A program made the translations under genes and the position numbers. A stretch of DNA of 64,000 nt from Thermococcus peptonophilus (lineage in GTDB: Archaea; Methanobacteriota_B; Thermococci; Thermococcales; Thermococcaceae). The notes under the pieces were generated by a model. The model was not told the DNA's origin. It was given only the letters and a program-made list of their open reading frames with translations, and made no database searches. Of the stretch, positions 49,857 to 54,831 are shown piece after piece. Every line of letters starts with the position of its first letter. Within the stretch, counting starts at the first letter, position 1. Location: NCBI RefSeq assembly GCF_001592435.1, contig NZ_CP014750.1, forward strand, positions 1,550,001 through 1,614,000, given 5' to 3'.

Positions 49857-49909
49857 TCAGCACTCAAGATCCTCATCATCCGGTAGTCAGTTTTTGCCTG
49901 GTTCATCAT
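49857..49909 (-). ncRNA. C/D box guide sRNA
   Basis: On the minus strand: box C ATGATGA (49909-49903), 12-nt guide accaggcaaaaa, box D' CTGA (49890-49887), 7-nt spacer, box C' ATGATGA (49879-49873), 12-nt guide ggatcttgagtg, box D CTGA (49860-49857). Both guide lengths and all four boxes are canonical. Predicted targets are UUUUUGCCUGGU and CACUCAAGAUCC, methylated at the fifth base. It lies between two + strand genes; flanks tttg/caaa can form a short terminal stem. Confidence 0.88.
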
Positions 49910-50880: not shown

Positions 50881-50916
50881 GCTATGTTTTTAAACTTCTC
50901 CGGATACTTTAACATG

Positions 50917-51078
50917 CCGACAGCGAGGGGACAGTCAGTCTCCTCGCAGGGCTCGGTACAACCGCCTCCGCAAGGCATCGGGTTCCGTGAGCGGAGCGTG
51001 CTCACGCCGAGCCCACAGGGCCGGGAGCATCCACCCGCGGGAGCAGTGACCGCGGGCCTCTGTACCCGGCCCACACTT
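50917..51078 (+). ncRNA. Double H/ACA guide sRNA
   Basis: This GC-rich stretch folds into two consecutive H/ACA units. Unit 1: lower stem GGGCTCGG (50949-50956)/CCGAGCCC (51007-51014), upper stem 50963-50971/50991-50998, then ACA at 51015. Unit 2: lower stem GGGCCGGG (51018-51025)/CCCGGCCC (51065-51072), upper stem CCCGCGG/CCGCGGG (51034-51040/51050-51056) capped by a K-loop-like GAGCAGTGA, then ACA at 51073. In both, the 3' pocket strand begins 16 nt before ACA, as in known guides. A hairpin at 50923-50947 precedes them. The TATA-like tgtttttaaac (50885-50895) sets the 5' end estimate. Confidence 0.85.
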
Positions 51079-51098
51079 CGATGCACTTCTCAAGAAAG

Positions 51099-53969: not shown

Positions 53970-54758
53970 ATGAGGATAGAGGAGCACGTTGCATTCACAG
54001 CAAAACATAATGACTGGCAGGTTGCCAAGAAGCTCACGGAGCTTGAGGACGAGGCCGTTGCCCACTTCCTAGCAGGGATAGCGAACTCCGTTAACACTAG
54101 GATACCTCATTACATGTCAGAGAACATTGACCTTGAGGGAATAAGACGACTGGCAGAAGAAGTCAGAAAAGACACTCTCAGCGACACGATAGTTGCTCTA
54201 AAATCTCCTGGAACATCAAGGAAGCTGGGTGCACTGGTCAAGGAAGGAGACAAAAAGCTCAAGAAGTTGCTCGTAGATGCAGCAAAGGCTGTCCTCGTCA
54301 GGATAACACTAGAGGAAATAGTCCCCGTTAATTACCCCGAAGGTGAGCTTACTGGGGTTGACGTTGAGTTTCCGTACGAGGAAGATCACGTGAACTTCAC
54401 TGCCAAGCATGGAAAGTGGATAGTTGTCAAGAGGCTCATCATAGACGAGAAAACGCCCCTACTTGACGTTGCCAGACTTCTGGCGAGCATCAACGAGACG
54501 GTCACTCTGAAGCTTCCCGCGTATGCGCACATAGACCTTGAGGGTATAGAAGGCGAGTTCTCGGCGTTCAAAAAGGTTAAAAAGTCCGACATCCCGAAGG
54601 TTGTGGAGGCCTACGAGGCGTTCGAGCCTTCAGCCTACGCCGATGAACCGTTCCTTGAGCACGCTAGGGTCTACGCTCTCCGCGTGGCTCTTGAGAAGAT
54701 AGGGCTTCCTCTAGATGTCCCGTCCAAGAGCCTCGAAAAGTACCTTGAGAAGGCGTGA
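53970..54758 (+). CDS. Internally duplicated protein, probably DUF2666
   Basis: The 262-residue protein contains two copies of a ~120-residue unit: EEHVAFTAKHNDWQVAKKL ... ENIDLEGIRR and EDHVNFTAKHGKWIVVKRL ... AHIDLEGIEG. I believe this matches the archaeal DUF2666 family of unknown function. GGTGAG precedes ATG 53970. Its stop codon overlaps box C of a C/D sRNA. Confidence 0.8.
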   Translation: MRIEEHVAFTAKHNDWQVAKKLTELEDEAVAHFLAGIANSVNTRIPHYMSENIDLEGIRRLAEEVRKDTLSDTIVALKSPGTSRKLGALVKEGDKKLKKLLVDAAKAVLVRITLEEIVPVNYPEGELTGVDVEFPYEEDHVNFTAKHGKWIVVKRLIIDEKTPLLDVARLLASINETVTLKLPAYAHIDLEGIEGEFSAFKKVKKSDIPKVVEAYEAFEPSAYADEPFLEHARVYALRVALEKIGLPLDVPSKSLEKYLEKA

Positions 54759-54803
54759 TGATGCCGAGGACACCTGAGCGGTGATGACTCTTCGCTTCGC
54801 TGA
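54755..54803 (+). ncRNA. C/D box guide sRNA overlapping the DUF2666 gene stop
   Basis: Box C GTGATGA (54755-54761), 12-nt guide TGCCGAGGACAC, box D' CTGA (54774-54777), 3-nt spacer, box C' GTGATGA (54781-54787), 12-nt guide CTCTTCGCTTCG, box D CTGA (54800-54803). All boxes are perfect. Flanks agaagg and cctttct can form a terminal stem. Predicted targets are GUGUCCUCGGCA and CGAAGCGAAGAG with methylation at the fifth base. The TGA of the upstream gene lies within box C. Confidence 0.92.
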
Positions 54804-54831
54804 CCTTTCTTCCCATTTTGAGGTGCCGCCC

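Follow-up and report, generated by a model that had tools for sequence, protein, structure and literature searches.

The Thermococcus peptonophilus ortholog of the HgcF/Pab35 guide RNA and the complementarity of its 5' end to 23S rRNA

The RNA encoded at positions 50916-51086 (+ strand) of the 64,000-nucleotide stretch of T. peptonophilus DNA analysed here (the window) is almost certainly HgcF/Pab35, in its Thermococcus orthologous form; this is an archaeal guide RNA of the box H/ACA class with two pockets. The analysis established its family identity and orthology, the conservation of its stems and boxes, and the match of its targets to published ones. This RNA is already known, and the sole new point about it lies at its 5' end, which is complementary to catalytic-centre 23S rRNA.

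Identity and architecture of the RNA

Positions 50916-51086 (+) are a full-length match to the Rfam family HgcF/Pab35 (RF00058, model positions 1-168), with a covariance score of 163.4 bits (E = 2.4e-38) where the curated gathering score is 70 bits. A covariance search had been suggested in the first-pass annotation, made from the sequence alone, and its outcome, together with the two stem units, their ACA boxes and the orthologs, bears out the class proposed there, a double H/ACA guide RNA. The same annotation called the RNA unannotated; that part fails because it is one and the same as HgcF/Pab35, orthologous to the published Pyrococcus abyssi Pab35. Pab35 was published at 318,231-398 (PMC4652768), and the RF00058 match in one of the genomes searched (G064) has exactly these coordinates; we therefore regard G064 as P. 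abyssi and the homology as direct.

HgcF was found in 74/74 good Thermococcaceae genomes, covering six genera, with one copy above the cut-off per genome; a search of sister families outside the Thermococcaceae found no copy. Weak second matches (~25-37 bits) in several genomes were considered as possible paralogs, and the four examined were HgcE/Pab105, a different family. The plasmid records searched held nothing similar to HgcF DNA. Transcription has been described for HgcF in T. onnurineus (PMC5316973) and for Pab35 in P. abyssi (PMC4652768). Small ORFs overlap the locus, but a protein-coding reading was rejected in view of the covarying stems and of the position between genes for an EamA transporter and a CBS/HTH protein. 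The region is ~70% GC, and the suspicion of a chance GC-rich inverted repeat with no RNA gene is refuted by the Rfam match, by the folding of the HgcF strand (z = -5.4; 0/200 shuffles as stable), by orthology and by compensatory changes, leaving it practically no weight.

A putative TATA-like promoter element, TTTTTAAA (50887-50894, +), can be read directly ~25 nt upstream of the RNA, and a T-rich/AAA element lies at the same distance upstream of HgcF in many orthologs. The RNA itself opens with an unpaired and nearly invariant 5' leader, GCCGACA (50916-50922, +), defined by the alignment of 88 orthologs and a search for complements in the organism's own rRNA. There follows a 5' hairpin (50923-50947, +) with arms at 50923-50932 and 50938-50947, which had been noticed as a third hairpin lacking an ACA; its 10 bp are continuous, no ANA follows, and it is not an H/ACA unit because it has neither pocket nor ANA box, a K-turn being absent as well.

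Unit 1 (Pab35.1; 50949-51014, +) consists of a lower stem (50949-50957/51006-51014), an upper stem (50963-50971/50991-50998), a 3' guide at 50999-51005 and a 5' guide near 50958-50963; the lower stem has nine pairs, the innermost a U.G, leaving eight Watson-Crick pairs, and its ACA box is at 51015-51017 (+). Unit 2 (Pab35.2; 51018-51072, +) has an eight-pair lower stem (51018-51025/51065-51072), an upper stem (51034-51040/51050-51056), guides at 51026-51033 and 51057-51064, a predicted K-loop at 51041-51049 and an ACA box at 51073-51075 (+). Two adjacent units, each with lower stem, pocket, upper stem and immediate ACA, are therefore present as first described. The 16 nt counted earlier between pocket and ACA is likewise obtained in both units when the count starts at the final Watson-Crick pair of the upper stem, and becomes 15 nt if one non-canonical layer is allowed to join that stem. 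Both units conform to the rule of 14-16 nt from upper stem to ANA (productive distances being 14-15 nt; PMC4652768), with the ANA directly after the lower stem. The resemblance of the end of unit 2 to a K-loop also stood, the tandem G.A/A.G being clear by sequence in GAGCAGUGA (51041-51049), and a K-turn on the GUGAGCGG strand of unit 1 is plausible. In each unit, the pocket and ANA box would be the docking site of Cbf5-Nop10-Gar1 and the K-turn or K-loop that of L7Ae, and pairing of the unit with domain V of 23S rRNA would lead to the isomerisation of one uridine.

Stems, boxes and leader were scored over the alignment of 88 HgcF orthologs. Standard pairs fill 97% of lower-stem and 97% of upper-stem cells in unit 1, and 95% and 90%, respectively, in unit 2; compensatory double changes occur at 15 of the 32 stem pairs, affecting both units. 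An ANA follows unit 1 in 88/88 aligned orthologs (AUA in six of them), an ACA follows unit 2 in 88/88, and the unit 1 3' guide, UGCUCAC, is invariant.

The alternative 7-bp hairpin noted earlier within unit 1, CGUGAGC/GCUCACG (50986-50992/51000-51006, +), is exact and can be read directly. The 5' arm of this hairpin, CGUGAGC, repeats the rRNA target segment, and the other arm is the 3' guide of unit 1; the predicted protein-free centroid of the unit contains six of the seven hairpin pairs. It is possible that this target copy sequesters the 3' guide in cis as a self-inhibited fold, and the folding model suggests that the hairpin could reduce unit 1 activity when proteins are absent; L7Ae bound to the putative K-turn of unit 1 would probably tip the balance towards the productive fold.

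Two C/D box sRNAs lie in the same window. The first, at 49857-49909 (-), in the gap that precedes the EamA gene, is canonical (ATGATGA, CTGA, GATGATGA, CTGA) and scores 39.6 bits, just under the 45-bit cut-off of Rfam snoPyro_CD. Many orthologous loci have it at the same distance, and its D-guide, GATCTTGAGTG, is near-invariant and similar to a sequence complementary to a CAA anticodon loop; an rRNA target of at least 8 nt was not found for this sRNA, and an exact 11-mer target of GATCTTGAGTG occurs nowhere else in the genome. The second, at 54751-54805 (+), is sR45 (RF01274, 75.9 bits), the D guide of which is complementary over 10 nt to 23S rRNA from position 2157.

Predicted pseudouridylation targets

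All 641 uridines scored in T. peptonophilus 16S and 23S rRNA were ranked for bipartite pairing with the two guides, a scan that the first-pass annotation had proposed, and U2676 and U2701 each came first. For unit 1, the rank 1/641 site is CGUGAGC-U2676G-GGUU, with 7+4 pairs; for unit 2, it is GACAGG-U2701C-GGAUGCU, with 5+7 pairs (ACAGG and GGAUGCU). U2553 ranks 11/641 for unit 2 (AACAGAG-U2553C), with six upstream pairs (ACAGAG) on the 3' guide alone, and no stable downstream pairing was found there in the scan of the organism's own rRNA. The targets deduced earlier, CGUGAGCA-UN-GUUGUA for unit 1 and UACAGAGG-UN-UGGAUGCU for unit 2, were close to these sites in sequence, but in both the register was about one base off.

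Shuffled rRNA equalled the top target score in 3/60 trials for unit 1 and in 1/60 for unit 2; because this sometimes happens, the scores alone are modest evidence, and the case for the targets leans also on those published for the ortholog. In P. abyssi, these are Pa35.1-L2672 and Pa35.2-L2549, and at L2549 the 3' duplex consists of a single base pair (PMC4652768). The six-bp 5' duplex of unit 2 at U2553, with no stable 3' duplex, is like that published for L2549. Numbering of 23S rRNA is offset by +4 from P. abyssi to Thermococcus (2585/2589, 2588/2592, 2603/2607; PMC6138745), and T. peptonophilus 23S rRNA has a U at 2553, 2589, 2592, 2607 and 2676; the published targets thus carry over to U2676 and U2553. 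Unit 1 would then guide Psi2676 (P. abyssi 2672), and unit 2 would guide Psi2553 (P. abyssi 2549) and probably also Psi2701, U2701 (P. abyssi 2697) being a predicted target. That HgcF modifies these uridines in T. peptonophilus is what we infer from the published P. abyssi work.

The 5' leader and its complement in 23S rRNA

Taken together, the leader and the beginning of the hairpin's 5' arm (50916-50928, GCCGACAGCGAGG) complement 23S positions 2594-2606, CCUCGCUGUCGGC, perfectly over 13 nt; the leader proper (50916-50922) complements 2600-2606 and the arm residues (50923-50928) complement 2594-2599. From its position, we take this rRNA segment to belong to the peptidyl-transferase strand, at about 2498-2510 in E. 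coli numbering. The first-pass annotation recorded the ACA-less hairpin but missed this match, which is the longest between HgcF and rRNA, the next longest being 9 nt. A longest match of at least 13 nt was obtained in 114/5000 shuffles (2.3%) and in 22/2552 overlapping 171-nt stretches of the window (0.9%). The duplex would start one base after U2592-A2593 and end against U2607, and the site lies between Psi2592 and Psi2607 and also between the HgcF targets 2553 and 2676; Psi2589, Psi2592 and Psi2607 have all been mapped in T. kodakarensis (PMC6138745).

Leader and hairpin persist in 88 of the 89 full-length orthologs examined. The exception, a divergent HgcF of the same genus (L099, in genome G033), has both guide units without either leader or 5' hairpin, and is a natural leader-hairpin deletion useful for probing the role of the leader. 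Nine of the 13 columns of the element are invariant, the variants being G1A (one genome), A7G (two), C9U (30) and A11G (13); across six genera the seven unpaired bases of the leader hardly vary, and the bases just upstream have mostly diverged. Three of the four variant types (A7G, C9U and A11G) keep the rRNA pairing as G.U, a proportion of pairing-keeping change types to be set against 18/64 in the other stems; the difference lies in the expected direction but falls short of significance (p = 0.08, in a small test). The hairpin is also kept in the variants, by changes in the other arm or by G.U pairs, and a compensatory C-G to U-A change is among these. On the rRNA side, 2594-2606 shows a single sequence throughout the Thermococcaceae genomes that yielded the pattern.

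We lean slightly towards the reading that leader and hairpin form a 5' cap, protecting the RNA or setting its end, and that the rRNA complement is accidental. The stable 10-bp hairpin with its compensatory change is consistent with such a cap, as is the P. abyssi transcript, which begins 4 nt upstream of the leader (PMC4652768); however, neither the near-invariance of the seven unpaired leader bases across six genera nor the 13-nt rRNA match itself is explained by it.

Both would be accommodated if the element were added to the guide role as a third, non-modifying rRNA-binding arm, antisense to 23S 2594-2606, although we consider this tentative and rather unlikely. Pairing of the leader with that site, which we infer from complementarity, is offered as a lead. 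The perfection and length of the match, the conservation of leader and arm next to diverged upstream sequence, the retained G.U pairing, the unchanging rRNA site and its location amid the pseudouridines and HgcF targets all argue for it, and the duplex is predicted to be more stable than the hairpin, both at 37 C (-27.4 vs -19.1 kcal/mol) and at 85 C (-9.7 vs -3.3 kcal/mol). However, a match with a chance of ~1-2% that was picked after looking is weak, element positions 8-13 are explained by the hairpin alone, the G033 lineage has both guide units with neither leader nor hairpin, and HgcG, whose guide complements the same rRNA site, would be a competitor for it. Were the arm real, the leader GCCGACA would land on 2600-2606 of nascent 23S rRNA as a toehold, and the 5' hairpin would then open by strand exchange to yield the 13-bp duplex with 2594-2606. 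That duplex would tether the RNP to domain V, or hold the catalytic-centre strand open during assembly, keeping it accessible during the formation of Psi2553, Psi2676 and neighbouring sites.

Far less probable is a third guide, atypical or decayed, of which the leader would be one half, with Psi2592 or the orphan Psi2589 as its target. The duplex start one base after U2592-A2593 is in the H/ACA register for Psi2592, Psi2589 needs an RNA of unknown type (PMC6138745), and a third Pab35 motif, 35.3, appears in the 2015 paper (PMC4652768). However, Psi2592 is already guided by Pab40, a conserved partner half for 2585-2591 was not found in the ortholog alignment, the 5' hairpin has no ANA box or K-turn, and the six known P. 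abyssi H/ACA RNAs made no Psi2585 in vitro (PMC6138745). As a Psi2589 guide, the leader was rejected: the register misfits U2589, and the candidate 3' half (GCAAG, near 50970/after the hairpin) is unconserved.

Comparison with known systems

The T. peptonophilus RNA shares with HgcF/Pab35 (RF00058) the 5' hairpin, the two H/ACA units and the 23S targets, and the guides are near-identical. It differs from P. abyssi Pab35 in its longer 5' hairpin and in the unit 2 pocket, which is 6/6 nt rather than 5/6 nt, a switch already noted for T. kodakarensis (PMC4652768). As a guide RNA, it is a further ortholog within a family already known. If the 13-nt leader does pair with the catalytic centre, it would point to a role of an archaeal H/ACA RNA that is neither modification nor catalysis, and would offer a testable link to the pseudouridine cluster 2589/2592/2607, of which 2589 is without a known guide (PMC6138745). 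Such non-modification functions are known for eukaryotic snoRNAs and are reported as not yet known in archaea (PMC7991803); in the literature consulted, no archaeal H/ACA RNA was described with an accessory antisense element. Archaeal C/D sRNAs have been proposed as rRNA chaperones (PMC7994747) and are like the HgcF leader in that antisense pairing to rRNA would aid folding, but what they guide is 2'-O-methylation, and they carry C and D boxes, which the leader lacks.

HgcG/Pab40 (RF00064), likewise an archaeal H/ACA guide with several units, has a 5' guide, CAGCGAGGU (in L115 and L114), that complements 23S 2593-2601, overlapping the site of the HgcF leader, and the two RNAs could thus compete or act in sequence there. 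In HgcG, CAGCGAGGU sits inside a pseudouridylation pocket (for P. abyssi Psi2588, here 2592), whereas the HgcF element is a pocketless 5' leader.

Extra pairing with rRNA outside the guide is a feature of some eukaryotic snoRNAs, among them yeast C/D snoRNPs and snR30/U17. It is to these accessory antisense elements, which aid modification or processing, that the proposed HgcF arm may be likened.
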